Shown here piece after piece: positions 5,224 to 61,255 of a stretch of DNA of 64,000 nt (position 1 is the first letter of the stretch; each line of letters starts with the position of its first letter). The notes under the pieces are model-generated. The model worked only from the letters and a program-made list of their open reading frames with translations, was not told the DNA's origin and made no database searches. The DNA comes from Henricia sp. BOLD:AAB3569 (taxonomy: Eukaryota > Echinodermata > Asteroidea > Spinulosida > Echinasteridae). The stretch covers positions 2,232,001 through 2,296,000 of the forward strand of contig JBBELK010000298.1 in assembly GCA_037783545.1 (NCBI GenBank). The letters run 5' to 3'. The position numbers and the translations under genes were made by a program.

Positions 5224-5436
5224 GTCAGAGGTTAACTTGTCAGAGAAAGGGGCGCCCTCGGCGCTCCATGTTCGTCACAGTAAAAAGAACTATTCAAGAT
5301 GATCGAAGTACTCGACTGAGACGATGCAATCAGTGCCAGTTCTCAACGAACACAGGCATCTCGTAGAAGCAGCAGAAATTCCCTGAAGTCAAACACGAGC
5401 TCAGCAGCCATCCTTGCTCGTGCTAAAGCCGAATCC

Positions 5437-6790
5437 TTGAAGCAAAAAGTGGAATTCACGCAGAAAGAGGCGGGTCTTCGTCGGCAAGAACAAGATGTCG
5501 CCAATGCACTTCTTCTATTGGGGGCAGAAAAGGAGTATGCGATGGCAAAAGCGGAAGCGGAATTTTTAGAGTCAGTCGCCCTGAAGGAAGGTTCTGCCAG
5601 TATCCAAGAAGATTTGCAGTTGCCAGTTGTTGACTCCGCTGTTCGCACCGGCAGCTATATATCCCACCACTTTAAGAAGCCGGAGACAGAGTTGCCTGAA
5701 AAAGAAAAATCAACGATCAACATTGAAGAAAAGTCCCCACCAGACGTTCAGCCTGCGATATCAGACAAAACGGAGGGTGCTGAAACCAAGCCCGGACTAC
5801 CATCGCAGTCTATCTCCAAAGATAACAAGCTACCGGACTCCCCTAGCCCACCTATCAAGGAGAGTCTCAACTCCATCAGTAACATGTTGGTGAAGAAGGA
5901 GCTGGTAAAGAGTGGAATCAGAAAATTCGGAGGCAGTGCGGGTGACTACCGAGCGTGGAAGTGCAGCTTTCAACAAGCAACAAAGGACCTGGAGTTGAAA
6001 CCATATGAGGAGTTAAACTTGGTCCTGGGTTCCCTCGAGGGCGAGACAAGATCATTTGTCCAAAGGATCTACGCCATCCATGTCGACAGACCAGAAGTGG
6101 GCCTCAAGCGAACATGGGAGTATCTGGAGCAAAAACATGGCTCCCCAGAGGCAGTGGAACGAGATCTCACTGACCGACTAGAGCGGTTCCAAAAGATCCC
6201 ACCTAAGAGCAGCACCAAGTTGGAAGAGTTTGGATATCTTCTCCTTGAGGTCCAATATCTGAAGGAGTCGGAAAAGTTTCCAGGGTTGCTGGCCTTGGAT
6301 TCCTCGAGGGGATTGCAGCCCCTAGTGTAGAAATTGCCAGAGTGGCTACAGAACAAGTGGCGAGAGAACTAGAAGGGGTCAGAATACAAGAAAAAGCATG
6401 CGGTCATCTTCCCACCTTTTGAGGAATTCGTAAAGTTCATCCAGCACCATGCCAGAGTGCAAGGCGACCCGAGCTTCCAGTTTTCCGAAGCTGTCAAGAG
6501 TTCAGCTGAACGGTTTTCGTCAAAGCCTTCCTTCACCGTAAGAAATACTGGGGTAAAGGAAGGGTCGGCAGCAAAGGAGACGGCCGGTTGCCTAGTACAC
6601 AACACAGCACACGATTTGCGGGATTGCCGGGCCTTCCGAAGGAAATCCCCAGATGAGAAGATATCATTTGTGAAAGAGAATCGTCTATGTTTCCGATGTT
6701 TGAGGACCAGCCACACCATTAAAAACTGTAAGACCCAGGTGAGATGCGACATTTGTGGCAAGTCCCATGTCACAGTCATGCACAGGCCCG
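5437..6790 (+). pseudogene. BEL/Pao gag (degenerate), coiled coil plus zinc knuckles
   Basis: The N-terminal frame 5437-6330 encodes an alpha-helical Lys/Glu/Ala-rich region, then a Gag-like core (FGGSAGDYRAWKCSF at about residues 164-178, LVLGSLEGETRSF). After a break near 6330 a second frame carries the Pao-type cysteine array near 6580-6785: CLVH, then LCFRCLRTSHTIKNC and CDICGKSH. Gag would package element RNA. The frame break means no continuous product is encoded here. Confidence 0.8.
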
Positions 6791-6939
6791 CACCCAGTCA
6801 GGAAGTTCCACCAGCGGCAAATCAGACACCCCCTACCGCAGAGTACGACAACCGGCCCCAGGTAATTGTCACACCAAAATGCACCAGAGTATGTGGCAAC
6901 GGTAAAAAAAAGGCCGGTCGTGCGCCAAAATTTGTTTAC

Positions 6940-7360
6940 TTGGAAGAGATTCCGGACCGTGTGATCGCCATACACGTACGTCATCATCGACGACCAAAGC
7001 GATGGTTCCCTCATCAATGGGAATCTTCTTGAGAGATTAGGAGTCAATCAGGAGAAGTCAACGTATGCCGTCAAGACGGTAAATGGCCTCCATGAGGTCC
7101 ATAGCAGAAAATGTGCTGGCCTGGTCATCAAGAGCATGGACGGCACAGTTTCCATTCTAGCGCCTACAGTGTTCGAGTGCAACAATATTCCTGGAGATGT
7201 AGCGGAGATTCCCACACCGGAGGCGGCAGCAGCCTTCGATCACCTAAAGCCTATTGCTTCGATGATACCACAAAGATGCAGAAATAGCAGTACTACTCGG
7301 CAGAGATGCTCCACAGTTCCACAAAGTGAGGGAGGTGATCAACGACAGAGATGATCAGCC
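6940..7360 (+). pseudogene. BEL/Pao aspartic protease region, frameshifted
   Basis: After a frame change near 7000, the segment around 6985-7140 reads like a Pao-type protease: a DDQSDGS stretch followed by GLVIKSMDG. The continuation at 7136-7354 breaks again. The catalytic Asp context is only partly recognisable. The protease would cleave Gag-Pol. Confidence 0.5.
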
Positions 7361-7889
7361 ATGGGCACACCGTCTCGATCTAGGCTGGGTCGTTGTTGGC
7401 GAGGTTTGTTTGAACGGCGCCCACTTCCGGACAGACATCTCCGAGCTCCCCCCCGCAGCAAGACGTAATCAGTACCTACTTTACGCAGGTCTTGAGAAAC
7501 GGCCGCCATTCCGCCCAATTCCAGCCATGCGACCGGGCAGTGCAGGTCTTCCACACCAGTCCTGAAGCAGCTAAAATGTGTTCCTTAGCACCAGTGCTGA
7601 TGAGCGTCTTGGGCCGTCCTCCGACGACAGAGAGTTCATGGAGTTGATCACCAAAGAAACGAAGAAAGACCGAGATGGTTACTGGTGTGCACCTTTGCCC
7701 CTCAGAAAAAAATAGAAGGCGGCTACCAAACAACAAGGCCCAAGCAATATCCAGAATGAAAGCACTGGCCAGTTCCCTGGCTAAAGACGAAAACAAAAGG
7801 AAGCTCTACATCGAGTTCATGAGAAAGATCTTGGAGAAGGGACTTGCTAAGCAGGTTCGAGATGATGCAACCGATGCTGGGGAAGAGGT

Positions 7890-9486
7890 TTGGTACCTCC
7901 CACACTTCTGAGTATACCACCCCAGAAGCCAGGCAAGCTGAGAGTGGTGTTCGACTCCAGTGCTGTCCATTCAGGCATTTCCCTCAATGATGTTTTGCTA
8001 AGCGGACCTGATCTGATGAACCAGCTGCTTGGCGTCCTGATCAGGTTCCGAGAGGAGCCAGTTGCAGTCACCGCAGATATTGAGCAGATGTTTTATGCTT
8101 TCAAGGTTCGAGAAGACCACACAAGATTCCTAAAATACGCTTCCTGTGGTATGAGGACAACAACCCAAACGCAGCCATTGTCACTGCATGACAGTGCATG
8201 TCTTTGGCAACAAGCCATCCCCAGCTGTGGCCATCAGTGGCCTAAGAAAAACAGGTGAAGAAGGTGAAGCAGAGTTTGGAACCGATGTGAAGGAGCTGAT
8301 AAAAAGAAATTTCTATATGGACGACCTATTGAAGTCCTCACCAACCAAGGAAGAGGTAGTCGACGTGCTGAAGAGAACAAAGAATCTCTTGTCCACTGCG
8401 AATATACGTCTGCACAAGTTCGCTTCCAGCGATGCTGATGTCCTGAGTGCATTTGAGCCAAGCGAGTTGGCCCCGAACCTGGCTAAAGCTGACCTCTCCA
8501 GCAGAGATAAATGTACCATAAGGCGCACATTGGGAGTATCCTGGGACCTGAAGTCAGACTCTTTCACCTTTTCCAATTAGCAGAACCGAATGTCAGCGCG
8601 TGCACCAAGAGGGCTGTGTTGTCAGAAGTTTATGGAGTTTTCGACCCGATTGGGTTGGCAGCACCTGTGATCATCAAAGGGAAGATGCTGTTGCGAGAGA
8701 TGACGCAAAATGGTGGTGGCTGGGATGATCCTCTCCCAAAGGACCTGCTCCAAGACTGGGTGAGGTGGAGAAAGTCCCTGATCGCCTTGACGGATGTGCG
8801 AGTTCCTCGCTCATTTGCACCATTCCCGGATCCCAACCACAGGAGCAGTGAGACGAGAGCTTCATACTTTTGGGGACGCTTCAAACAAGGCCAAAGGCGC
8901 AGTCTGCTACCTGAGGACTAGCATCAACGGTGAAGTCCATGTCCAGTTGGTGATGGGTAAAACAAAGCTCGCACCTAAAGCAGCCGTCAGCATACCTCGC
9001 CTTGAGCTCTGCGCATCAGTCTTGGCCACAGAAATCGAAGACTACGTCACTCATGAACTACAGACCAAAGTTGATGATTCAAGGTTCTACACTGATAGTA
9101 AAGTTGTCCTGGGGTACATCACCAACAGAAAACGTCGCTTCCGCACCTACGTGTGCAACCGAGTAAATCAGTTACTCAAAACCTCCAAGCCTGAGCAGTG
9201 GGCGTATGTCCCCTCAAAGAGAAACCCAGCAGACCTAGCTTCAAGATCCATTCCGGCAGCAGAGTTAAGTGGTTCCATTTGGATTACCGGACAAGAGTGC
9301 TTGAGGCAGAAGAACCTGCCCACGAGCTACGAGCAGAGAGAGGTAGAAATTCTTCATTACGACCCAGCGGTGTCTCCAGAGAACATTAGCTGCAACAAGG
9401 TTGTCTTGGCCGATGCATCCCTCGGCAGTGAGAGAATGACCAGATTTTCAAGTTGGGATTCAGCGATAAGAGCCACTACCAACTAA
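7890..9486 (+). pseudogene. BEL/Pao reverse transcriptase and RNase H (broken)
   Basis: The reverse-transcriptase core starts with [13 protein letters not shown] (about 7931) and [12 protein letters not shown] (about 8068), and has the catalytic FYMDDLL box near 8312. A frame change falls near 8170-8190 and stops occur at about 8580 and 8921. The RNase H part in 8794-9486 has FGDAS, LELCA, FYTDSK (about 9087) and ADLASR (about 9230) in the usual order. Key residues survive but the frame does not. Confidence 0.85.
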
Positions 9487-27776: not shown

Positions 27777-34976
<7,200 letters not shown>

Positions 34977-38967: not shown

Positions 38968-40836
38968 TCACAGAAGCTTGACCGCTCCAATTTTGGAGAT
39001 CTGTAAAATCTTCAGTGCTCTTAAGACCTGCAAGGGATGAGAAACAAACACTTGGAATTAAGAAGTCCAGTTTAAAGACAAATTATGCCATTTCGCCCCA
39101 AGTTACTTCGTTACATCACCCAAATGTCACTTCGCCCCAAAACCACTTTGTGCACAGGCCGTTGTTCAGGGCGAAATGGTTGAGGGCGAAGTGGTTTTGG
39201 GGCGAAATGACTGCAAACCCTTTTTTGACTGTTTTCTCAAAAGTTAGACGAAGTACAGAGCTGGTTTTCGCTCAGGTTGGTTTTAATCATGCATATCTTC
39301 AATCACACAGGAGGATAAAACTATCTGTAAAAGTTTACCAATCATGTATACTATCTTTAAGCAACAGAGGTAAGCGGCAACCAATGCACTTTTCTTGCTT
39401 TTTTGGCCGGTAAACACTCGAGCCACGTGGGTCATGAAAAATGACACCCAAAATGGTGGATTGAGGGCGTGACATCACCGATAAGCAATCAATACACAGG
39501 TTGGTTTTTATAATACACATCCTGCACACGTGTAGATAAAACTATTTTTAACAGTTTTCTAATCTTGTAATCTATCTAAGATAAACTATCTGGGTGCATT
39601 TCAGTTCATTTAAATTGAGCGAAGACATATGGTCAAATCAGGATTTTAACCTATGATAATGATAATGGCATCTTATATAGCGCACATATCTATCCTGCAG
39701 GTGCTCATGGCGCTTTAGACATTTATCACCCTGGTCATTGGGCACAATTCCCTGGGGAGTACGAAGCCCTGGCAGCCTGCCACGCAAGCGCTCAACGGCT
39801 GCGACCCTTGCAGGTACCCATTTACTCCTGGGTGGAGAGAGGCAACTTATGGCAAAGTGCCTTGCCCAAGGGCACAAAATTACAGGGTGTACTTACTTTT
39901 AACTTGGCCTCTCCAGTGGCTCCTGATATTCTGAGGCCCTTCGTGGTCATGTCTTGAACTGTTAAACTCTCCGTGTTTTTGTTTACTTTAAAGTGCTCAA
40001 AAAGTGTTTTGTACACCTGAAAAAAGGAACAAAAAAAGTAACAATTTGTTTAGAGTTAGGTACTAAACTGGAAAACATGTTGACTTATATAAAGTGTATT
40101 TGGACGCAAATTAAAACTTTTTTTTAAAAATGGTCGGAAAGAAAGTTTGAAAAATATACTTTCATTTGACACTTCAAAAACAAACTTTGCTAGGCTGCCG
40201 ATATCCTGGAGAATTAGGCAGCAAGTGTTTCTCCCCTTCAAAAAGGCAGTCTTTCTGATTTGTAATGTTTGAGAATGTATTTTTTTTATAAATGTAAAAC
40301 AAAACAGTAACCAGGCCTCCATGGTTCGAGGTCTGGTTACTGTTATCACATTGTGTCCTTAGACAAGACACTTTACTCCAGATTGTCTCTCTCCATCTAA
40401 GTGTATAAATTGGTACCGACAAATCTGGTTGGGAAACCCAGATAACTGCTGGAGGTAAACCTGTAATGGACTAGCATCCCGTCCAGGGGGAGTTGCAATG
40501 CTCCAAGTCACTCCATGCCATGAACACTAACGACCAGTTGAGCAAAACCGACTAACTGCTGGGGGGTAAACCTGCAATGGACTGGCATCCCATCCAGGGG
40601 GAGTAGCAATGCTCCTAATCACTTCATGCCATGGAAACTGTTGATGAGTTCCGGCCGTATGAGCCAATTTGTCTTGTGAAATTTCTTTACTTTTACCTTA
40701 TAAAACAAAACTATAATAATAAAAAATCTTACAGCATTGATGTCTGTGAGTTTCGCTCTGCCTTTGATTAATGGAGAGATGGACTGGAATTCCTCTTCAG
40801 ATACCGGTGTGAACTCTCCACTTTGTGCCCGCTTTT
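38968..40836 (-). CDS. SKA gene exons 6-8, candidate winged-helix microtubule-binding domain
   Basis: Exons 40836-40733, 40016-39897 and 39027-38968 encode about 94 residues: TPVSEEEFQSISPLIKGRAK, then DINAVYKTLFEHFKVNKN, LTVQDMTTKGLRISGA and VLRALKILQISKIGAVKLL. The order of an EEF motif, two helices, a short strand region and a final K-rich helix parallels the SKA1 C-terminal domain, but identity is low and the match is by eye. Confidence 0.6.
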
Positions 40837-43800
40837 CTAAAATGATGAATCGGTATATTTTAAAATTGGTCAGAATTGTTTTTATTAAACCACTATACGT
40901 ATTTGTTATCTGACTAGTCGACCATCAATAAGTGTGGTCTAGTGGGTATGAAGCGGGACTCCCAATCAGAGGTTGTGGGTTCAAGCCCTACTATGACCAA
41001 CGTGTCTGTGTCCCTGGGCAAGGTACCTAATCCCAGTTGCCTCGTCAACCCAAGCGATATTTGGGAAGCTGTTAAGGGGTATGCCACAATCTAACTGCTG
41101 ATATAGGGTTGAGCGCCTGGCCAGCAGCCACCTAGTTGAAGCGAAATGGTTCTGGTGATTCCCTGATGGCAGCAGTAATAATGGCAACAGCGCCAGGAGC
41201 ACCCCGCAGGGTGGACACATGTGCGCTACATAAAAATCCACCATTATTATTATTATTAGTAAGTGTAAAAAATTAAAAGCATGTACGCTATATAAGAATC
41301 CACCATTATTATTATTATTATTAGTAAGTGTAAACAATTTAAAGCATATAAAATTGATCAGTTGTCCTACCAGCTTGAGATGGGCTGAAATTGATTTTCT
41401 CTCCTTGGGTGTTCCCTTGACTGGAGGGTTCCTAAAAATGACGAAAACATAAGCAGTTGATGTCGAAGGATGTCTAAACACATTCTGGCAACGTATAGAC
41501 CCTTTGTACCGGCGGCCATGACGGGGGTAGGTTTTCATATGTAAATGTGACAATCGATCCACAAAGTGCCTACTCGTGCATGACACACAGTGACAATGTG
41601 ACTGCCCCCTGTCATGGCCGCCCGTGCAAAGAGTTTATAGTCACAGGGACAGTTGACGAGTTAAAATGTCAGCTTTGCCGCTGTCTTCCACGGTTGACGT
41701 ATCCACCATTCATTTGTACACAGCGTGTTTTTAACTTGAACTTTACGGCTGTGGACGGCCTGTCAGTGAAGCAAATCTCGCTCCGTGGCGGCCGCCTCGG
41801 AGTGTTGCAAAGTATGATCTTTTGGTGAGAAGATTCATACAATGAATGTAAAAATGACACCCAAGGGTCAGTATTTGTGGTGTTTGACCTGTTCTTAACT
41901 TTTGGCCAATCACATTTGCCTTAAAATCTTAAATTTATATTTCTTTCCAAAAATAATCCGTACGCCAACTGGTAAAATTATTTTTATATGAATTATGTTC
42001 ACTATAGAGACGGCAGAAACGCTTCAACTCCCATGAGCCATTAGCTATGATCCACTAGCCACCAGCCTAGCCACACTTTAGCTCAGCCATGTCTTAGCCC
42101 AGCCAAGTTGAGACCAACCCCATGCCACCTAGCTTACTCCCTGATCCCCTAGACCTCGTCAAGCCAAAACACAGCCCAGCCCAGCCTAGCCTAGCCTAGC
42201 CTAGCCTAGCCCACCCCAGCCCGAAGCCAGCCCACCCCAGCCCGAAGCCAGGCCAGGCCAGGCCAGGCCAGCTCAACAACACACCCAGCTCCATCCCAGC
42301 CCATCTCTTCCTACCCCACAACACTGATTCCCAGCCTAATTTTGCCCCATCCCAACTCCCATATTTCCCCCCAGTCAATCTCCTACCTGTATTGAACCAT
42401 TCTCCCTCACACTGCTATCAGTTCTATCCTTGTCACTTTCTGCTGCTGAATCACCAAGTCTCAGACCAAGGATGGAGTCAACCAAGGCTTCCTGTTCACT
42501 ACTGTCCGCAATCTGCAAAACAGCATACATGCATTTAACTGGAGTTGGTAGCCTTGGTGGCCAAATGATGGCCTTATTGTACAAGGGCACTAATGCATAG
42601 TTCCGAGATTGCCCAGTTAACCCCGCCCCTTAAATATTGTTGCTATGCGTTCACAAGCCATCGCAAAAAATGGCGACACACAACGTACAAAGCAACGGGA
42701 CTCGGCATGGAAAGCACAGATTCATTGGAGAAAACTCAAAGGTATTTATGTTTTAGGGTCGACAGTTACCGTAGCACACACTGAGCGAAGGGCTAGTAAT
42801 GCAGGGATGACATATATTCATAAACATGCGCTTTCCTACCTTTGAACAGCGAATCGCCCGACATTGAAACCAAAATTCACCCGGTCACTGGCGCATACAA
42901 CATCGGGTGATTGTGTGATGATTGCATCACTTTGACCTTTGTGGGCGCCGTCTGCTAGCTCTGTTCTGATTGGTCAGCGGGTTCGGCTTGATTGACAGGT
43001 CGGAACTATGCATTATGTGAGCCTTAATGTCCTCGGCTTCCAGTACGAGGCTGTTGTATTCAGGGAAAGCAGTCTAAAGGTTGAACTCACCTGAGCTTGT
43101 GGTGCATTCTCCTGAATGGCTCTGATGGCCGTACAGGCTACCTGAAGCTGAGTTCTGAAGTAGCCAGCCATCTCAGACTGCATGGCCTTAATGCCCTCGG
43201 CTTCCTGTACGAGGCTGTTGTATTCAGGGAAAGCAGTCTAAAGGTTGAACTCACCTGAGCTTGTGGTGCATTCTCCTGAATGGCTCTGATGGCCGTACAG
43301 GCTACCTGAAGCTGAGTTCTGAAGTAGCCAGCCATCTCAGACTGCATGGCCTTAATGCCATCGGCTTCCTGTACGAGGCTGTTGTATTCAGGGAAAGCAG
43401 TCTAAAGGTTGAACTCACCTGAGCTTGTGGTGCATTCTCCTGAATGGCTCTGATGGCCGTACAGGCTACCTGAAGCTGAGTTCTGAAGTAGCCAGCCATC
43501 TCAGACTGCATGGCCTTAATGCCATCGGCTTCCAGTACGAGGCTGTTGTATTCAGGGAAAGCAGTCTAAAGGTTGAACTCACCTGAGCTTGTGGTGCATT
43601 CTCCTGAATGGCTCTGATGGCCGTACAGGCTACCTGAAGCTGAGTTCTGAAGTAGCCAGCCATCTCAGACTGCATGGCCTTAATGCCATCGGCTTCCTGT
43701 ACGAGGCTGTTGTATTCAGGGAAAGCAGTCTAAAGGTTGAACTCACCTGAGCTTGTGGTGCATTCTCCTGAATGGCTCTGATGGCCGTACAGGCTACCTG

Positions 43801-46800
43801 AAGCTGAGTTCTGAAGTAGCCAGCCATCTCAGACTGCATGGCCTTAATGCCATCGGCTTCCTGTACGAGGCTGTTGTATTCAGGGAAAGCAGTCTAAAGG
43901 TTGAACTCACCTGAGCTTGTGGTGCATTCTCCTGAATGGCTCTGATGGCCGTACAGGCTACCTGAAGCTGAGTTCTGAAGTAGCCAGCCATCTCAGACTG
44001 CATGGCCTTAATGCCCTCGGCTTCCTGTACGAGGCTGTTGTATTCAGGGAAAGCAGTCTAAAGGTTGAACTCACCTGAGCTTGTGGTGCATTCTCCTGAA
44101 TGGCTCTGATGGCCGTACAGGCTACCTGAAGCTGAGTTCTGAAGTAGCCAGCCATCTCAGACTGCATGGCCTTAATGCCATCGGCTTCCTGTACGAGGCT
44201 GTTGTATTCAGGGAAAGCAGTCTAAAGGTTGAACTCACCTGAGCTTGTGGTGCATTCTCCTGAATGGCTCTGATGGCCGTACAGGCTACCTGAAGCTGAG
44301 TTCTGAAGTAGCCAGCCATCTCAGACTGCATGGCCTTAATGCCATCGGCTTCCAGTACGAGGCTGTTGTATTCAGGGAAAGCAGTCTAAAGGTTGAACTC
44401 ACCTGAGCTTGTGGTGCATTCTCCTGAATGGCTCTGATGGCCGTACAGGCTACCTGAAGCTGAGTTCTGAAGTAGCCAGCCATCTCAGACTGCATGGCCT
44501 TAATGCCATCGGCTTCCTGTACGAGGCTGTTGTATTCAGGGAAAGCAGTCTAAAGGTTGAACTCACCTGAGCTTGTGGTGCATTCTCCTGAATGGCTCTG
44601 ATGGCCGTACAGGCTACCTGAAGCTGAGTTCTGAAGTAGCCAGCCATCTCAGACTGCATGGCCTTAATGCCCTCGGCTTCCTGTACGAGGCTGTTGTATT
44701 CAGGGAAAGCAGTCTAAAGGTTGAACTCACCTGAGCTTGTGGTGCATTCTCCTGAATGGCTCTGATGGCCGTACAGGCTACCTGAAGCTGAGTTCTGAAG
44801 TAGCCAGCCATCTCAGACTGCATGGCCTTAATGCCCTCGGCTTCCTGTACGAGGCTGTTGTATTCAGGGAAAGCAGTCTAAAGGTTGAACTCACCTGAGC
44901 TTGTGGTGCATTCTCCTGAATGGCTCTGATGGCCGTACAGGCTACCTGAAGCTGAGTTCTGAAGTAGCCAGCCATCTCAGACTGCATGGCCTTAATGCCA
45001 TCGGCTTCCTGTACGAGGCTGTTGTATTCAGGGAAAGCAGTCTAAAGGTTGAACTCACCTGAGCTTGTGGTGCATTCTCCTGAATGGCTCTGATGGCCGT
45101 ACAGGCTACCTGAAGCTGAGTTCTGAAGTAGCCAGCCATCTCAGACTGCATGGCCTTAATGCCATCGGCTTCCTGTACGAGGCTGTTGTATTCAGGGAAA
45201 GCAGTCTAAAGGTTGAACTCACCTGAGCTTGTGGTGCATTCTCCTGAATGGCTCTGATGGCCGTACAGGCTACCTGAAGCTGAGTTCTGAAGTAGCCAGC
45301 CATCTCAGACTGCATGGCCTTAATGCCCTCGGCTTCCTGTACGAGGCTGTTGTATTCAGGGAAAGCAGTCTAAAGGTTGAACTCACCTGAGCTTGTGGTG
45401 CATTCTCCTGAATGGCTCTGATGGCCGTACAGGCTACCTGAAGCTGAGTTCTGAAGTAGCCAGCCATCTCAGACTGCATGGCCTTAATGCCATCGGCTTC
45501 CTGTACGAGGCTGTTGTATTCAGGGAAAGCAGTCTAAAGGTTGAACTCACCTGAGCTTGTGGTGCATTCTCCTGAATGGCTCTGATGGCCGTACAGGCTA
45601 CCTGAAGCTGAGTTCTGAAGTAGCCAGCCATCTCAGACTGCATGGCCTTAATGCCCTCGGCTTCCTGTACGAGGCTGTTGTATTCAGGGAAAGCAGTCTA
45701 AAGGTTGAACTCACCTGAGCTTGTGGTGCATTCTCCTGAATGGCTCTGATGGCCATACAGGCTACCTGAAGCTGAGTTCTGAAGTAGCCAGCCATCTCAG
45801 ACTGCATGGCCTTAATGCCATCGGCTTCCTGTACGAGGCTGTTGTATTCAGGGAAAGCAGTCTAAAGGTTGAACTCACCTGAGCTTGTGGTGCATTCTCC
45901 TGAATGGCTCTGATGGCCGTACAGGCTACCTGAAGCTGAGTTCTGAAGTAGCCAGCCATCTCAGACTGCATGGCCTTAATGCCCTCGGCTTCCTGTACGA
46001 GGCTGTTGTATTCAGGGAAAGCAGTCTAAAGGTTGAACTCACCTGAGCTTGTGGTGCATTCTCCTGAATGGCTCTGATGGCCGTACAGGCTACCTGAAGC
46101 TGAGTTCTGAAGTAGCCAGCCATCTCAGACTGCATGGCCTTAATGCCATCGGCTTCTTGCACGAGGCTGTTGTATTCTGCCTTGACACGTTGTAAACGTT
46201 GCATCATCTCACTGGGGTTGAGCTGAAATGGGTTCCAGAGAAGGACAAAAGCTACAATTCAAGACCATTATACCATTTGCAGATGAAACTTTTACAAATT
46301 CCAAGAACAGCATTGAAACACAACTAAGGAATAATGTCTTTTAAAAATTCCAGCCACATAGATGCAGTAATACTTTAAGAAAACCTTTTGAGAATGTGAA
46401 ATAAATAAATTTCATAATAGCCTGAAATGATTTTTAACACTCTGAACATATTTCATCTCCCAAAGAAATATTCTTTTCAGTCCGACACGAACGTATGAAC
46501 TGCCAGAGATCACAGGCATGATCATTGGCACTCGACAGTAATGCACTTATTGAATGGATTTGGGACTCGGACTGCCGAGGATTTGGATCATGTATGCTGG
46601 ACTCGGACTCAAGGACTCGACTTAAGGATTCCAACTCGGAAAGTGTGGACTCGACTACAGCCCGTTGAAAAGGCTGAGAGATGTAACATTTATTATCAAT
46701 TAGTAACGTGTATGACCACCCCTTGCGACAAGGCTGACTGCACCAGCCTTCATAAGAGCTGCCGAGGCAGGGTGTGCCACTCTGCTTGAAGCATCTCCTA

Positions 46801-48729
46801 TTCTAGCACCGTTTGGGAGAAATGCAGGTCAGATCATCACATACAGGTTCAATCAGATCAAAAATCCAACATAATTTGTTTTCTGAGAGCCCTGGCCTTA
46901 ACTGCACTAAGGATTATCCCGCAAACAGAAAATTTTAAGAATGTTTAATTCCAAAAAAGGGCCACTGAAGTTGCATTCTGCAATTGGTGAAGTATTGAAA
47001 TTATCAGAATTTGGTTTTTTTCCCACTTTTTGTCTGGCAAATCTTGTAAAGTTTTCAACTATTGTTATTAAAAACACGGAATTCACATTGAAATGAAATA
47101 CCTGATTATTTCCACCAATCTGTTGTCTAAATTCGTCCTCCAGCTTTCTAGACATGTACTCCAAGTCAGATTCTGCCTTTCGGAACTGCAAAGAGAAATA
47201 GCAAGACCAGAAAATAGGCTATCTCTGCAGACAGCTGCAGTTGGCTCAATATGTACGGTAAGAGTTGGGAAGTTGATCAGTTGTGCAAATTTGATGGGAA
47301 AACACAAAATTTTAAGTGGGACGAATTTTAGATTGTGTGAGGAAACACTTAGAAAATTATCAGCCTGTCTCATATGCTTTGCACACAAGGTCTGATGAAG
47401 CCATGATCAACTTCCCAATTCTTTCTGTAAAATTGATATTTTCCCCCGTTAATTTTTTCATTTTTACCATAAAATTAGCATTTTCACACGGTTTATACTT
47501 TTAAAGGTAAATCCTGGGTGTCCATGCATGGTAATCCTGCCCTGCGCATGTACTGCTGGTACATACAGTACTCGAAGCATGAAGTGTCGAACGCAAACGG
47601 TGAAATTTGGGTAGAATTCCCACTATTTTCTCGGTAAGTAGGCATCGTATAATACCCTACCGAATGCGCATCTTTTTAGGGTGAGGTAAGGTAACAATAG
47701 TGTGGGTTACGGCTTTCAAAACTGTGTAGTTAAAAAGCACCCATGGTCGGAGTTGTTCGCGAAAGGTCTATATACGCCCCTGTGGCCAAGCATACGGACA
47801 GTAGAGGCGCACGTCCAAAAACGGGGACATCCCCGAATTTCGAGGAAGTACTGGTTTTTCTAGCAGGCTTGTGGGTTTAATACACTATTGACACTAGGGT
47901 CTTTTAAGTGGCCTCATTGGATTTCTTATGAAAAAAATCTTCAAAGCTGCCGTTAAAAAAAAAAAAATATACCGTTTACTTCTCAGGTTACAATTGGAGA
48001 AAAAAACTCGGACATCATTAATCGATACTTTGTGCACAGTTGTCTGCATGTAATCGATACTGGTTTTGTTTACAATATATTCGGTTTGGCATGCTGCATG
48101 TAATCATATTGCGTCACCACCATGTCCCCTCAAACCTGGACAGTCTTGAAAAGGCAGGACAGTTCCATGTCAGTTGTCCCCATAAAATTAAAAGGGGACA
48201 GTCGGTCCTCGAATTCGGGGATATCCCCGTTTTTGGACGTGCGCCCTAGCTAGCTCTACAGACGGAGCCGCAGTGCAGAACATGCATACAGAATGGGGCT
48301 ACTAAACGCGACGCCCAGGGAATGCGGCTCAGAACGTTGTCCGAAATTTGTCCAATGTTTCCAGACATCGTAGATGGCCAAATTGACGATTCCGTAAGCG
48401 TTACTGTTATTTCATGAAACACTAGACTCTCAGGATTACAATGGTGTATGTGAAAGTGCTCGGTCTGATGTGCTTCGGACGATATTTTTAGTAGAACTTT
48501 GTCAGATTTGAGCAGTTTCAGACTTGGTATTGTCGTACATCCCTCAATTAGGGCTGTAAATTTGCGACAAAATAAGTCAGATTTGAAAAGCGAGCAATTC
48601 ACAGCCCTAATTTTAGGGCTACTAAACCCCAAGCCTTACAAGTGCTTCAACTTTGTCTACGCTGTTTGCCATGTCATGGCTGAGCCTTTCACAGTCTAGC
48701 TGCTGATGAACTTGTTGGTTGCCAGCCAT
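38968..48729 (-). CDS. SKA2: SKA-complex kinetochore protein: SKA2-like N-terminus, SKA1-like winged-helix C-terminus
   Basis: Eight exons on minus: 48729-48640, 47185-47102, 46222-46043, 42512-42387, 41431-41371, 40836-40733, 40016-39897, 39027-38968 (stop TGA 38968-38970). Every junction has GT-AG ends and matching phase, giving 274 residues. Residues 24-50 (VDKVEALFRKAESDLEYMSR onward) match, from memory, vertebrate SKA2 ([20 protein letters not shown]). Residues 59-118 (LNPSEMMQRLQRVKAEYNSL onward) continue the SKA2 coiled coil. After a Ser/Asp-rich linker (119-175), residues 176-274 (EEEFQSISPLIKGR, DINAVYKTLFEHFKV, VLRALKILQISKIGAVKLL) resemble the microtubule-binding winged helix of SKA1. 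Vertebrate SKA2 is only about 120 residues and lacks this domain. The SKA complex links kinetochores to spindle microtubules in mitosis. Exon 3 continues into a 164-bp tandem array. Confidence 0.85.
39082..39365 (+). repeat. Dispersed CGCCCCAAAACCACTT repeat
   Basis: Second copy of the family at 31385, in SKA intron 7. It shares TTTTGACTGTTTTCTCAAAA, GAGCTGGTTTTCGCTCAGG and CACACAGGAGGATAAAAC. Confidence 0.78.
39385..39500. repeat. Repeat inversely matched at 58200-58310
   Basis: CTCGAGCCACGTGGGTCATG and AAAATGACACCCAAAATGGT occur in inverse orientation in an LPP intron. Confidence 0.65.
39655..39880 (-). mobile_element. SINE (family C) next to SKA exon 7 donor
   Basis: TATATAGCGCACATATCTAT, CCCTGGTCATTGGGC, GGGTGGAGAGAGGCAA and GTGCCTTGCCCAAGGGCA match 32895-33190. 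It stops about 15 bases from the exon 7 splice donor (39891-39896). Confidence 0.7.
40316..40660 (+). repeat. SINE-like sequence with internal tandem duplication
   Basis: CCATGGTTCGAGGTCTGG is a B-box-like start, followed by TGTCCTTAGACAAGACACTT. Then a unit of about 125 bp is repeated twice (AACTGCTGGAGGTAAACCTG at 40444 and AACTGCTGGGGGGTAAACCT at 40555; GGACTAGCATCCCGTCCAGG and GGACTGGCATCCCATCCAGG). Confidence 0.6.
40928..41262 (+). mobile_element. tRNA-derived SINE (family A)
   Basis: GTGTGGTCTAGTGGGTATGA head, TTGTGGGTTCAAGCCC B box, GTCCCTGGGCAAGGTACCTA body, ATT repeats at the end, then a duplicated tail (AGTAAGTGTAAAAAATT and AGTAAGTGTAAACAATT). In SKA intron 5. Confidence 0.82.
42060..42360. 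repeat. Low-complexity CCAGCCTAGCC / AGGCCAGGCC tract
   Basis: Short tandem CCTAG and CCAGG units and a 24-bp unit containing CCCACCCCAGCCCGAAGCCA repeated twice. It lies in SKA intron 4, 27 bases beyond the exon 4 donor. Confidence 0.8.
42591..43014. mobile_element. MITE with AATGCATAGTTCCGA ends at the edge of the SKA array
   Basis: AATGCATAGTTCCGA at 42591 is mirrored by TCGGAACTATGCATT ending about 43014. No transposase; the inner frame of about 65 codons has no family motif. It abuts the low-coordinate end of the 164-bp array. Confidence 0.75.
43022..46178 (-). repeat. 164-bp tandem array of SKA exon 3 plus intron start, about 19 units
   Basis: Splice-donor copies sit at 46037-46042 and every 164 bp down to 43085-43090, 19 in all including the true exon 3 donor. 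Each unit is 136 bp of exon 3 (from GAATACAACAGCC) and 28 bp of intron (GTGAGTTCAACCTTTAG and 11 more bases). Units differ at only a few sites: GAG/GAT, CAG/CTG and one ACG/ATG. The array ends inside a partial unit at about 43022. Seen on minus, each 17-bp spacer GTGAGTTCAACCTTTAG separates 147-nt open cassettes (45879-46025, 45715-45861, down to 43091-43237) encoding TAFPEYNSLVQEAEGIKAM and on to ENAPQAQ. Confidence 0.95.
46043..46222 (-). CDS. SKA2: SKA exon 3, coiled-coil segment and founder of the array
   Basis: Sixty codons in phase 0/0 with a CATTTCAG acceptor and CAG|GTGAGT donor. LNPSEMMQRLQRVKAEYNSL at its start is unique; the rest is repeated downstream. It aligns with the second half of the vertebrate SKA2 coiled coil. 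It differs from the array copies at LVQEADG, coded by GTGCAAGAAGCC here and GTACAGGAAGCC in most units. Confidence 0.85.
46545..46670. repeat. Degenerate GGACTCGGACTC tract
   Basis: GGACTCGGACT, CTGGACTCGGACTCAAGGAC, GTGGACTCGACTACAGCCC. The ending recurs at 13960-13980, 34780 and 61005. Intron 2 of the SKA gene. Confidence 0.5.
47802..48248. mobile_element. MITE with GGCGCACGTCCAAAAACGGGG ends
   Basis: Left GGCGCACGTCCAAAAACGGG GACATCCCCGAAT; right ATTCGGGGATATCCCCG and TTTTTGGACGTGCGCCCTA. The ends read TAG...CTA like hAT elements, but no 8-bp duplication is evident. In SKA intron 1. Confidence 0.75.
48285..48624. mobile_element. Foldback-family copy abutting SKA exon 1 donor
   Basis: CAGAACGTTGTCCG, TTCCAGACATCGTAGATGGC, CTAGACTCTCAGGATTACAA and AGGGCTGTAAATT match the inverted arms at 35781-36060 and 36581-36834. 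Its end lies about 10 bases from the splice donor at 48634-48639. Confidence 0.75.
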
Positions 48730-49462: not shown

Positions 49463-51397
49463 ATGGGGTCGTCCAGCATAACGATGCGACTATCGGGGTG
49501 GTTTGCCACGTCCCGCAGTCGTAAGCTAATACTCCTCGCTGTTACCATCCTCGTGTTTTTTAGTTACGTGGGACCCTGGATCATGCACCATAACCAAACA
49601 GTCAAAGTGACATTGGGTTGCCTAACGTTACAACTTAAAAATCTTGAAGACGATTTTGCGAATGTGGACGCTTCAATTTACCACGTGGATAAATCAGATG
49701 TTCTCGTTGATCACGTGATTCCGTTTGTCGGCAACGGGAAGATCGGAATCGTGGCCGATGTTTTCAAACCGAAAGGGATTGTGTTGAGAAATGACGAAAT
49801 GTGGATGGGTGTTGCTCAGTATCGTCCCTTGGTGATGGCAAAGTTGACGTCTCTGCAGGATCAAAGTTTAACGGTTCTGAATTACAAAAAAGCAAACGTT
49901 ATACATTACCAGTGTTACTCCGTTGGTGAATCCTGCGTGTTTGTTAAAACTATCACGTTGGTGCACCGCTTTAGGCCGTCGCTGATGTTACAGGAAGTTG
50001 TCGTTGAAAATAACGTGGACCAACCTGTTACGTTGGAGCTGTCTCGAAGCGGTCCGGTGAATTGGAAAAGTGCCAGTACAACAACGGAAGCATTAGTGGT
50101 GGACGGCACAAATTGGGAATATTTACTAACAGTAGGAGATTTGAGCGTTAGTGGAGGCTCTGGAAATGGGCATGCTCAGAAAGTAATTACGGTCGTCATT
50201 GCTGCAACAACGTTCGAGAAGACGATTAAAATACCAGCGAAGTCTGTCCATAAAAAGCAGATTTTGACGTTGGTGAAATACTCGGGTCCTCTCGGTGCCA
50301 GCACAGCGCAGGTGACAGCTGGGTTAGTGGATGAAATTAACGATGAGTTATTCAAAACTTTGCATTTGAATTTTGAGGATTTAGTCAAAGAGCACGAAGA
50401 TGCGTGGTCGATGCAAATTTGGAAGACGGGGTTAATCCAGGAACCCTTGGACCAGAGGGCATCCAAGGATTTTAAGAATCAACAAACTCATAACTCGGCT
50501 GTGCATGTTTTCAACGTCCTAACTACGTCCGTGATGTATTACATGATGTCATCCATCGAGGCGCCGTTCCTTCTGGCTTCGACGACACCACAACGCAAAA
50601 CAAAGTTAATCACCGCATTACAGCATCCCGGATCCTGCTTTAACGGCCAACCAACGCTCTTCGAAGAACTCTTGTGGCATCCCGCTGAAACGGAAAAGGA
50701 ATTGTCGGACCTTTTGTCGCACTGGCAACACGTGCTTTACAAACACGGCTGCCACAATCTGCTGTCAATTGGACTTACAGGAGTCCTGCAAGCTATGATG
50801 TTGAGTTTCCTCGCCGGGCAGTTCACGGAGCGAGAACTCTCATTTCACGCCGATCCCCTTCTCTTCCGTAATAAATTCCATCTTCAGAACATCTACTATA
50901 ACAACTCATTCCTCCGCATCGATATCGACCCAAGCCATGCTCATCAGATATCAATCAGCATCACTGACGCCCAATCTCAAGCAAGTGATACCAGTACAAC
51001 GCCCCTTAAACTCTACGCCTGCGGGACCGGATGCGAAGGCACGCCAATTCTTCTAACGTCCAACGTACAAAAACTCCCTATAAAATGGACCGTCCCGCAG
51101 ACCCCTTTCCTATACATCTCCCACGACCCGAAACACCTCGACTACCTAAAGACAAAAATAATCCACTATAAACACATCTACAAGTTGGACGATTCCGACG
51201 TCAATGCTTTGATGCCAGCCGGTGACGAACCTAAAAACAAGCATCATACCGTGCAACTTCCCGTGATTATCTGGGTCATTATCATTAGTCTCATCATTGC
51301 ATTTCATGCATACCTTATAAACATGGTGTATAAAGAATATTGTTCTGATTCGACCTCGAGTGTATCACGGACCTTGGAGAAAACGAGCACAGCGTGA
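49463..51397 (+). CDS. KIAA2013: KIAA2013 homologue, intronless membrane protein
   Basis: A single 644-codon frame from ATG to TGA, close to the human length of about 634. Residues 22-41 (LILLAVTILVFFSYVGPWIM) form an N-terminal membrane anchor or signal. N44 in HNQT and the NNS near residue 479 could be glycosylated. A second membrane segment is at about 600-620 (PVIIWVIIISLIIAFHAYL), followed by a short cytoplasmic tail after VYKEYC. By memory, LYKHGCHNLLSIGLTGVLQA, LSFLAGQFTERELSFHADP, LKLYACGTGC and FLYISHDPKHLDYLK align well with the vertebrate protein. Its biochemical role is not established, so I give none. Most of the protein would be luminal or extracellular. No introns interrupt it. 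It is head-to-head with the SKA gene; a polyadenylation signal follows at 51592. Confidence 0.92.
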   Translation: MGSSSITMRLSGWFATSRSRKLILLAVTILVFFSYVGPWIMHHNQTVKVTLGCLTLQLKNLEDDFANVDASIYHVDKSDVLVDHVIPFVGNGKIGIVADVFKPKGIVLRNDEMWMGVAQYRPLVMAKLTSLQDQSLTVLNYKKANVIHYQCYSVGESCVFVKTITLVHRFRPSLMLQEVVVENNVDQPVTLELSRSGPVNWKSASTTTEALVVDGTNWEYLLTVGDLSVSGGSGNGHAQKVITVVIAATTFEKTIKIPAKSVHKKQILTLVKYSGPLGASTAQVTAGLVDEINDELFKTLHLNFEDLVKEHEDAWSMQIWKTGLIQEPLDQRASKDFKNQQTHNSAVHVFNVLTTSVMYYMMSSIEAPFLLASTTPQRKTKLITALQHPGSCFNGQPTLFEELLWHPAETEKELSDLLSHWQHVLYKHGCHNLLSIGLTGVLQAMMLSFLAGQFTERELSFHADPLLFRNKFHLQNIYYNNSFLRIDIDPSHAHQISISITDAQSQASDTSTTPLKLYACGTGCEGTPILLTSNVQKLPIKWTVPQTPFLYISHDPKHLDYLKTKIIHYKHIYKLDDSDVNALMPAGDEPKNKHHTVQLPVIIWVIIISLIIAFHAYLINMVYKEYCSDSTSSVSRTLEKTSTA

Positions 51398-58700: not shown

Positions 58701-61255
58701 ATCTTCATCTAGTTAATGACTTCCCATCCCTGCTTGTGGATACCATAACAATGCCATTACATTGTGTAAAAGTTAATACACGTAGGTATGAATTATGATA
58801 ATTTTGTTTAGGGATTATGAACCGAGGGACCGCCGGGGTGAATAAATTTGATACAGGTGTGGACAAATGTCTATGAGTTTAGGAAATCTGGATGCAGTGA
58901 AAAGCAACTTGGCTCCACCGGGAATCGAACCGCGGACCTTCTGCTTAACGTGCAGATGCCCTACCAATTGAGCTTTGAAGCCAACTGGTGGTCTCGAATC
59001 ACGGTAGTGCAGTTGAGATTGGCTATCACGTGAGCTTAGCAAGCCCTACAGAGGGATAAACTCATGGACATTTTTCCACATTTGTTATATACCTTGCATC
59101 GAGATGTTCAGCTGGGTCAGCATTTTCATCACATGGTATGTCCTCAACGTACAAATATAACCCATTTTCGTCCCTACACCGGTCCTGTATAGCCGTGAAG
59201 TTGGGCCGACACACCGACAGAAAGTGGGGGCGTAGCCTGCCCACCATGAATTTGAGGCCGTTGGTGACAGACAACGTAACCACGCACGCGAAGAGAAATG
59301 GTGCGTAGGCATTGACGACGGCGACAATGTAGCCGTGAACCTTCACGCAGAGGAATTCGGTGCCGTAGTACATGGGCACGTCCCGGGTTAATTCACCGAG
59401 AGCTTTGTAGCGACGGAATAAAAGCCACTCGACAATCCCCATCTGTCAAGAATAAAAATTGCATCACAAGGTGCATTACAAGGCACAAGTTTCGTAAATT
59501 AAGTTACAAATTATGTCAAAGATGTATTGTCCGTACGTTTTTGGTGTGGCACCTCAAACTTTTTTTTATTGAATTGATTTTTTTTAGAAACATAAAAGTT
59601 ATTTGCTTTCAAATGAGAAAAAGAGCAATTGTGACTACGATCAAACAACCGTTTTTGATAGTTTGTCCTTCTTACACTCAGTTTTTACTGAAAGGTGACT
59701 ATGTTAATTATGAAAGTTTTCTCAACGTTTTTCACGCCACTACCACGCGTATGGTACGGTAGCAACGACTGTCAAGTAAATGCGCATGCGCGACGGTATG
59801 CAAACAAACCGGCTGCGATTGAAATGCCGTTCACAACAGTAAAGACAAACAAACATTAGTCTTAGCTAAGACGTCCCAACTTTTGGATATTGCAAGACAT
59901 TTTTCAATGTGTCGTAGCTAAGATGTCATCAATTCAGTTAGGACATATGGGCTGCGTTCCAAACACGCAAATGTTTGCAAATGTTGGCTGCAATTTCGGG
60001 TGGAACGAATTGTGCGCCACTAACGTTGGCCAACGAACTTTTGGATTGTTCGCGATGTTCGCGAGTCATTTCAAAATGGTGTGCGCGACATGAAAAATGA
60101 CAGACGACGGTTTGCAGTTTGGAAAATAACAAATAAATTGCACCTGTCGTGGTTGTCTGCCTTCTTGCTGGCGATACACAATCAATAGCAACGTGTCACA
60201 TTTCCTCAATTTTGGTAAGCAGCGGAGAGCCACATTGCAACGTCCGTACTGCTGGGACCGTGGGGCCGCCAACTTGACAATGTATTTTGGCAAACAATCC
60301 ATTCCACATTGAGCAAACGTTGGCGCCAACGTTAACAAACCGTTTGCGTGTTTGGCATGCAGCCCCGATGTGTCTCAGACTTAAGACGGTTATATTGCAA
60401 TTCACCCCTGTTCTGATCAAGATTTTACATTTATGTAGCATTGGTGCATGCCATGGTTACATTTGAGTCCATCAAGACGTACATAAGTCTAGTGATGATA
60501 AAATCAAAAGTCTATTACAATTAAGCCGTGCCGCATTGGACTTGTTTTACCGAGAAGATGGTAAAATGAAAAATGGCTAAATTTTGCTGCTGTCCGCATT
60601 TGGACTTTTTGACACAGTAAAATTTTACCGAGACCGTGGGAGAGCATGCGCAGTGTCCCTTCACAGTTTGACCTTCACGGCCCGGACATACGCTTCCAGA
60701 GCACTTTTACCGACTCGCTGTGTCCGCATTGGACTTTTTGTCCCTGGAAAAGCTACCTGGGAACTTTTCCTGGGCAGCAGTTGGCCAGTAACCGCTGAAC
60801 TCGGGAAAAGTTCCTGAGAGGAAAACGTCCTGGGCTGTCCACATTGGACTTAATATGGGAAAAGTACCCATCGTCTCGGTAAGTTTTTAAAAAAAAGTCC
60901 AATGCGGACAGGCCTTTAGAAGCAACAAAGGATGAACTTCGACAAAATTTGTTGTTTAAATTAAGACCCATGGATTTGTGGTGGACTTGTGAAGGCTTGA
61001 TTGTGTTGGACTCAACTTGCAACCCCATCCCATTTAATGGATGAAGGGAGCTTGTGTAATTTTTTCAAACCTTATCCACTAGTATACTTACACCAACAAA
61101 TGGAATTCCCAAACACAAGACTATGGCAAGAGACGTGCTGACTGTGTTTTTCTTTAAGGGATAGCGTATGTTCTCATCATTACAGAACATGCCTCGTTGG
61201 AAGGGTGTAGAAGGTGACTTGGCAACTAGCTCCAAGATTACTCCAGGAACAGAGA
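55769..61255 (-). CDS. Lipid phosphate phosphatase (PLPP/LPP, PAP2 superfamily), 5' partial
   Basis: Exons on minus: 61255-61092, 59442-59093, 57983-57926, 57302-57126, 55954-55769 (stop TAG 55769-55771). Splice phases agree. The enzyme removes phosphate from phosphatidate, lysophosphatidate, sphingosine-1-phosphate and similar lipids, with its active site on the outer face of the plasma membrane. The three PAP2 motifs are intact: KFMVGRLRP, PSGH (its own 58-bp exon) and SRVSDYKHFWSD. TPFQRGMFCNDENIRYPLKK is the LPP-specific loop, and NFT in VCRPNFTAI is a candidate glycosylation site. The C-terminal exon gives AFFVSDLYFSETPSTE and a tail ending REPSNV. The first exon (N-terminus and start of TM1) is not in the window; it should lie beyond 64000. 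The vertebrate paralogue (PLPP1, 2 or 3) cannot be assigned. Confidence 0.92.
56092..56760. mobile_element. MITE with TTTAAAGGGCCCC ends in LPP intron
   Basis: GTTTAAAGGGCCCCTTATTT at the left; CATGTCACAGCCCTTTAAGC at the right. Body (TTTATGCTAATGAAATATGC, CATTCAACTGTGCACAAAAG, ACAGCGCCCTCTGTCTGTGA) recurs at 63420-63930. Confidence 0.75.
57335..57610 (-). repeat. Dispersed CGCCCCAAAACCACTTCG repeat, inverse copy
   Basis: Inverse of the families at 31385 and 39082: AACCAACCTGAGCAAAAACC, TTTTGAGAAAACAGTCAAAA, CGCCCCAAAACCACTTCGCA, then TTGGGGCGAAATGGCACTTG. In an LPP intron, 33 bases above exon 57126-57302. Confidence 0.8.
57740..57886. mobile_element. Right-half copy of the MITE at 26427-26879
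   Basis: AGAGCGCATGACCTTTGACTGCAACTT-type body, CACTCGAGATCAACTACA, GGGGATCAATCTTGATCCCG and GTGTAAACATGGTGTTA are shared. Confidence 0.65.
57926..57983 (-). CDS. LPP micro-exon with PAP2 motif 2
   Basis: 58 nt encoding LSFPSGHASEAACAFIYFS after a CTATTTGCAG acceptor, ending at a GTGAGT donor. The His of PSGH is the catalytic acid in the PAP2 family. Confidence 0.9.
58200..58310. repeat. Inverse copy of 39385-39500
   Basis: CACCATTTTGG, CATTTTTCATGACCCACGTG and GGCTCGAGTAATAACCGGCA mirror the other copy. Confidence 0.65.
58912..58986 (-). repeat. tRNA-like sequence, probable pseudogene or SINE head
   Basis: On minus: GGCTTCAAAGCTCAATTGGT, AGGGCATCTGC, anticodon stem-loop with GTT, GGTTCGATTCCCGG and TGGAGCCA. 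The acceptor stem pairs, but the T stem has two mismatches and the base before the anticodon is C, not U. A functional tRNA-Asn is therefore unlikely. Confidence 0.5.
59949..60365 (-). mobile_element. MITE with GGGCTGCGTTCC ends, inverse copy of 15394-15824
   Basis: GGGCTGCGTTCCAAACACGC at the left, GCGTGTTTGGCATGCAGCCC at the right, so the terminal repeat is about 20 bp. Inner GACAACCACGACAGGTGCAA-type sequence and GGCAAACAATCCATTCCACA mirror the other copy. In the LPP intron. Confidence 0.82.
60522..60918. mobile_element. MITE with CCGCATTGGACTTGTTTTAC ends
   Basis: Left TAAGCCGTGCCGCATTGGAC with ACCGAGAAGATGG; right CATCGTCTCGGTAAG with GTCCAATGCGGACAGGCCTT. Several internal GTCCGCATTGGACTTTTTG copies. 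Confidence 0.75.

Follow-up and report, generated by a model that had tools for sequence, protein, structure and literature searches.

Minisatellites that lie across an exon/intron boundary have been described in lancelets and in humans. Tandem duplications over exon/intron boundaries of the lancelet globin genes BflGb6 and BflGb9 were named "mirages" (PMC3087553). BflGb6 has units of 150-160 bp in 6 and 3 copies in two haplotypes, with 81-100% identity, and BflGb9 has a 157-bp unit at the 3' boundary of exon 2 (PMC3087553). The units of lancelet Adh3 are 10-72 bp long, and reverse transcription PCR (RT-PCR) suggested that regular splicing is unaffected by them (PMC3087553). PGBD5 and troponin C are additional lancelet cases (PMC3902484). 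In BflGb6, units at the cluster boundary are left out of homogenisation (PMC3087553, PMC3902484). In human genes located in segmental duplications, variable boundary minisatellites may form novel introns via cryptic splice sites (PMC2812944). Intron gains by tandem duplication are known for potato RdRp (PMC4974935) and for Drosophila (PMC2891723). Here we analyze a stretch of 64,000 nucleotides (the window) from the sea star Henricia sp. BOLD:AAB3569, namely positions 2,232,001 to 2,296,000 of contig JBBELK010000298.1 in the assembly GCA_037783545.1. The origin of the assembly agrees with its mitochondrial cox1 on contig C2104, which translates well with AAA as Asn, ATA as Ile and AGR as Ser, the echinoderm code. 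Among the 120 listed of 7,998 scored candidates, its best protein matches come from the sea stars Meridiastra gunnii (93%) and Zoroaster, Ctenodiscus and Ceramaster (92%). A lancelet as host was considered and rejected on this basis; a query with a lancelet-type fluorescent protein gave no match either, although such a negative says little by itself. The window harbours SKA2, a kinetochore gene, and exon 3 of this gene has a long tandem array at its 3' end. This array is very probably an exon/intron-boundary minisatellite of the lancelet mirage type, with all copies after the first belonging to the intron.

SKA2 is encoded on the minus strand. The initial annotation had named a SKA gene and its exon 3, and this was confirmed: the peptide of exons 2-3 matches the Pfam family SKA2 (PF16740) with E 2.6e-14. 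The match improves to E 2.1e-19 once exons 1 and 4 are added; the match of the exons 2-3 peptide to the solved SKA2 chain 4aj5_K is weak (E 0.0047). A peptide search of the genome (740.7 Mb in 2,104 contigs) gave 21 matches, all of them at this locus. No second SKA2 copy was found in this search, and SKA2 looks like a single-copy gene in the assembly. The features of the locus are as follows.

48640..48672, minus strand: predicted SKA2 exon 1 (MANSVDKVEAL), which aligns with Amphiura MEGAADKLETL
47102..47185, minus strand: SKA2 exon 2, 84 bp
46043..46222, minus strand: SKA2 exon 3, 180 bp, the sole copy that has an acceptor of its own; base 46043 is the last one before donor 1
43021..46177, minus strand: tandem array of a 164-bp unit, with 19 full copies and then a partial one of 41 bp, running in sense order from 46177 to 43021 (Tandem Repeats Finder, register alignment)
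43091..45879, minus strand: decoy donors 2 to 19, with last exon-like bases 45879, 45715 and so on to 43091; all CAG|GTGAGT
42591..43015, strand not assigned: high-copy element resembling a miniature inverted-repeat transposable element (MITE), which carries perfect terminal inverted repeats of 16 bp and lies 5 bp away from the end of the array
42387..42512, minus strand: SKA2 exon 4 (IADSSEQEALVDS...), which provides the acceptor paired with donor 1; only the ACAG|GTAGG site marks its 3' end
38968..40819, minus strand: further SKA2 exon pieces (approximately 40819-40733, 40016-39897 and 39027-38968), found by homology and ending in VKLL and a stop; joints provisional

Tandem Repeats Finder (TRF) reports the array at 43,021-46,177 with a period of 164, 19.2 copies, 99% matches, 0% indels and a score of 6209, which rules out a chance origin. 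The initial annotation had placed it at 43022..46178, correctly except that each end was one base off. The donor CAG|GTGAGTTCAACC (CAG|GTGAGT) occurs in 19 identical minus-strand copies and the spacing is 164 bp in 18 of the 18 gaps, just as had been claimed for 19 donors at exact spacing in near-perfect copies. The last exon-like base is 46,043 for donor 1, in sense order, and 43,091 for donor 19. The unit consists of 135 bp of the 180-bp exon 3 and 29 bp of intron 3. Thus the earlier description of the unit as most of exon 3 plus 28 bp of intron needs a correction in its intronic part only. As also described earlier, the junction leads onto exon-internal sequence: in sense the unit begins at GAATACAAC (46,177), inside exon 3, and the donor follows 135 bp on. 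The last unit is incomplete: the array breaks off 41 bp into a 20th copy (43,061-43,021). With the unit as a query, the genome yielded 20 matches, every one at the SKA2 locus; the full copies among them share 98-100% identity with the query.

Each unit is part exon 3 and part intron 3, and no copy but the first is connected to the acceptor of the exon. The reading frame continues into exon 4 from donor 1 only. Splicing in silico from donor 1 keeps the frame open through exon 4; the resulting 144-aa reading ends at a TGA of intron 4 that was left in the test stretch. Each of the 18 donors 2-19 leads to a premature stop after 137 aa, which lies 50 to 2,838 nt short of the junction with exon 4. 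As more exons follow downstream, the mRNAs of donors 2-19 would be open to nonsense-mediated decay by the usual rule. The exon 3/exon 4 joint aligns without a gap with the SKA2-like protein of the brittle star Amphiura filiformis (APQAQ|IADSSEQ with APDAQ|GADSSEQ; 53% over 127 aa). This alignment speaks for donor 1 working together with the acceptor of exon 4. The frames of three relatives read beyond the exon 3 donor all have V after QAQ, as expected from a GT donor there. We regard the array as a boundary minisatellite with intronic extra copies on these grounds: donor 1 alone is in frame and has an aligned joint, and donors 2-19 run into stops.

The array has the structural features of a mirage. 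Its repeat unit crosses the exon/intron boundary, and the splice signal is repeated 19 times while the true boundary is kept, with the frame preserved by donor 1 only. As in the lancelet mirages, tandem units lie over an exon/intron boundary and the splice site is duplicated; the units of the globin mirages (150-160 and 157 bp) are near 164 bp in length. The SKA2 array is found in a sea star and has 19 full copies with 98-100% identity, whereas BflGb6 has 6 or 3 copies with 81-100% identity. For the lancelet mirages splicing was examined by RT-PCR and length differences were examined too, while the SKA2 array is known from the sequence of one assembly. The human minisatellites resemble it as repeat expansions at an exon/intron boundary (PMC2812944). 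However, they have a mean unit of 30 bp in 4 copies, about 160 bp in total, and occur in recent paralogues, in contrast to 19 copies of 164 bp in an apparently single-copy gene (PMC2812944). The segments duplicated in potato RdRp and in Drosophila contain AG|GT, as does the SKA2 unit, and the potato one also spans an exon/intron boundary. Those duplications represent intron gain, whereas the SKA2 copies lengthen an existing intron.

On this interpretation as a mirage-type minisatellite, the spliceosome would pair donor 1 with the own acceptor of exon 3 by exon definition and then join exon 4. The 18 other copies, the partial copy and the MITE-like element would be removed together as a single intron of 3,530 bp, so that the SKA2 protein would be normal. 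Intron 3 would measure about 113 bp if these three components were subtracted. The extra copies would be tolerated because the first donor is kept, and the array is probably harmless and without function.

The differences between copies give some insight into the history of the array. Five of the six variable unit columns fall inside a 41-bp segment S that is common to both array ends.

46137..46177, minus strand: S1, a segment of 41 bp within exon 3 that forms the 5' (sense) edge of the array; private differences at unit columns 18 and 21
43021..43061, minus strand: S2, the partial 20th copy of 41 bp that closes the array on its 3' (sense) side; it has T20, G30 and a private A32

Copies 2-19 depart from the consensus at three columns only, namely 20 and 30, both in S, and 95, in one copy; outside S, copies 1-19 differ at one base. 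Divergence within the array is greatest in the two end copies, which carry the private changes (columns 18 and 21 at the exon end, column 32 at the far end). All four combinations of columns 20 and 30 are present, two of them as exchange between the two end types predicts. The order of copy types has no significant higher-order period (p 0.06 for the best single lag and p 0.30 for the maximum taken over lags). The simplest reading of this pattern is that the array was built and homogenised by exchange between two old, slightly different copies of S, an exonic and an intronic one. Recurrent mutation is a possible alternative source of the combinations, the sites being few. The process may have started when S, or an entire unit, was copied into intron 3 after base 29. 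As a direct repeat, S would then promote slippage during replication or unequal exchange; the latest rounds would have made the interior uniform while the edges retained older differences. The initial annotation had proposed one unequal duplication followed by expansion. Expansion of a single unit agrees with our data, but the partial 20th copy and the diverged ends are left unexplained; a second step is needed, either a truncation or a separate copied insertion of 41 bp.

Four other explanations deserve consideration. The assembler could have unrolled one or few copies of exon 3 to 19. The 98-100% identity of the full copies would fit this, and so would contig C955, which seems to be an over-unrolled mitochondrial sequence: this contig has three tandem copies of cox1 at intervals of 16,221 bp, and contig C2104 has one. 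The triplication is probably an assembly concatemer and suggests that false tandem copies are possible in this assembly. On the other hand, the array sits in a 5.3-Mb contig with no N in the window, its copy types are ordered without a significant period and both end copies carry private changes. Usual long reads, if such were used for this assembly, exceed 3.2 kb, the length of the array. An artefact, which the initial annotation had admitted as a possibility, is therefore judged highly unlikely. Least credible of all is a coding repeat or tandem-exon array, in which the extra copies would be translated or serve as alternative exons to give SKA2 variants. An in-frame 51-nt mini-exon per copy is conceivable via a later CTTCAG| acceptor (161-aa product). 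However, a coding variable number tandem repeat has an in-frame, stop-free unit, whereas 164 is 2 modulo 3 and reading through meets a stop in copy 2. Tandem exons are duplicated entire, with both splice sites; here the unit starts inside the exon, and the exon 3 acceptor lies outside the array, so that the units lack the exon's own 3' splice site. The unit junction does make an acceptor-like site GCTTTCCCTGAATACAACAG (ACAACAG|), but splicing there would create an intron of 40 nt and an exon of 124 bp and soon run into a stop. The initial annotation had described an exonic minisatellite; its copies do not code on read-through, since 164 is not divisible by 3 and stops follow from all of donors 2-19.

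The DNA between two CTTCAG|GTAGCC sites might instead be spliced out as a nascent intron, i.e., an intron gained by tandem duplication. All 19 copies contain CTTCAG|GTAGCC, so an AG|GT is present within the duplicated segment, and excision between two such sites would leave the mRNA unchanged in 17 of 18 cases, with T86M in the remaining one. By a crude pyrimidine count the CTTCAG site and the junction site (10/17) equal the exon 4 acceptor, and the exon 3 acceptor has 12/17. Splicing at either kind of site is possible judging from the sequence. Against this, GTAGCC is a poor donor in comparison with the consensus GTGAGT, and the array is intronic anyway when donor 1 is used. We give this explanation little credence, slightly less than the artefact, in spite of the precedents in potato RdRp (PMC4974935), human paralogues (PMC2812944) and Drosophila (PMC2891723). 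Finally, the array could act on SKA2, an essential kinetochore gene, as a "rheostat" made of splice donors, its length varying between individuals or cells. The 18 decoy donors would compete for U1, the copy number would set the capture of U1 by decoys, and SKA2 output would fall in proportion to copy number via stop-carrying mRNAs. The donor consensus is CAG|GTRAGT, and 18 of 18 decoys match it; all 18 lead to premature stops. A varying copy number is to be expected, as in lancelet arrays (PMC3087553). At the same time, lancelet mirages were reported to leave regular splicing undisturbed (PMC3087553, PMC3902484), and arrays with donors are not clearly in excess in this genome. A whole-genome scan for three AGGTRAGT at a spacing of 164-194 gave 78 matches in 14 loci, some with a true period of about 95-97 that was caught as multiples. 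The reversed control motif gave 112 matches at this spacing, the 100 listed being on 17 contigs. At a spacing of 133-163 there were 137 matches of AGGTRAGT and 105 of the control motif. These counts are of motif loci, whatever their exon status. In the absence of clear enrichment over the control motif at spacings of 133-194, there is no sign of selection for donor arrays. We consider such a tuning role very unlikely, though it comes ahead of the other three. If it were real, the silent AG|GT routes would at the same time be a nursery for new introns, and boundary arrays would be a widespread deuterostome source of splicing variation.

Several points weigh against the preferred interpretation, a mirage-type minisatellite with intronic extra copies. 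The use of donor 1 is a prediction made in silico, and the age of the array and the order of events would both be drawn from this one locus. The array stops in the middle of a unit, which simple duplication does not explain. Human boundary minisatellites are often also retained in transcripts (PMC2812944), and so the silence of the SKA2 array is not assured. The array junction is absent from the frames past the donor in two of the three relatives (54 and 57 nt read); the frame of the third one, 33 nt, is too short to judge.

The initial annotation had regarded exonic minisatellites of this length and homogeneity as unusual. Arrays of this type were already known from lancelet mirages and human boundary minisatellites, and this genome is rich in arrays. 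Five of 14 ten-kb stretches of large contigs, hand-picked in position and partly adjacent, hold arrays of at least 300 bp (seven arrays with 80-95% matches, compared with 99% for the SKA2 array). Ten-kb stretches of three smaller contigs are all satellite, with periods of 297, 205 and 273 and 95-98% matches. Short-period minisatellites with units of 11 to 42 bp occur in the window at 34265-34532. Animal genomes have about one exon boundary per 1.5-2 kb. Assuming this density and random composition, the 14 loci imply, as an order-of-magnitude guess, somewhat more than 1,000 arrays of this period class, about one tenth of which would touch an exon boundary by chance. A literature search that covered few subscription papers gave, among others, work on lancelets, humans, Drosophila, potato and intron gain in general; among the matches listed there was no boundary array in an echinoderm and no paper on a SKA2 array.

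The MITE-like element next to the array belongs to a large family. There were 2,572 first-look candidates; 40 were scored, and the 39 besides this copy are 90-97% identical. No consistent target-site duplication was seen by eye in 15 copies. Two of the 15 copies whose flanks were examined lie at an array edge, the SKA2 copy included. The other one, at locus L016 (1501-2884), borders an array with a 172-bp unit (5.4 copies, 93%) and was probably inserted into it, as both its flanks resemble the repeat unit. Two of 15 are too few to claim that the element causes arrays. The 79-bp flank beyond the element at SKA2 has TAAGGCCAT in common with the unit. A decayed older unit copy in this flank was considered and rejected, as the local alignment was not significant (p 0.07 and 0.09; 3,000 shuffles).

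According to the predicted exons, echinoderm SKA2 has a C-terminal extension. The sea-star C-terminal exon pieces (40819-38968, minus strand) match Pfam DUF3161 above the cut-off (E 1.7e-13) and SKA1 (PF07160) below the cut-off (E 0.02). The tail of the Amphiura SKA2-like protein is similar to that of the sea star; DUF3161 is below the cut-off there. The extension may be an SKA1-like microtubule-binding domain; a comparison with solved structures gave no convincing match. Divergently from SKA2, with start codons about 0.8 kb apart, there is an intronless 644-aa open frame at 49463-51397 on the plus strand (DUF2152, PF10222, E 9.2e-76; query from 49457), which we take to be KIAA2013-like. The window also contains retrotransposon-like open frames at 5320-9486 (plus strand), one of them zinc-knuckle-looking by eye, and a tRNA gene at 58910-58982 (minus strand; Rfam, 54.3 bits), the sole Rfam match in the window at the gathering threshold.

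The SKA2 array adds a long, highly homogeneous splice-site-spanning minisatellite from an echinoderm to the lancelet and human cases. Its interest lies in the fact that it spans a splice site of a conserved gene in a phylum other than that of lancelets. Nineteen identical donors after one real exon make a clean natural test of exon definition and of order in donor choice. Relatives of this sea star could reveal the origin and spread of such arrays and perhaps their role as a source of introns.

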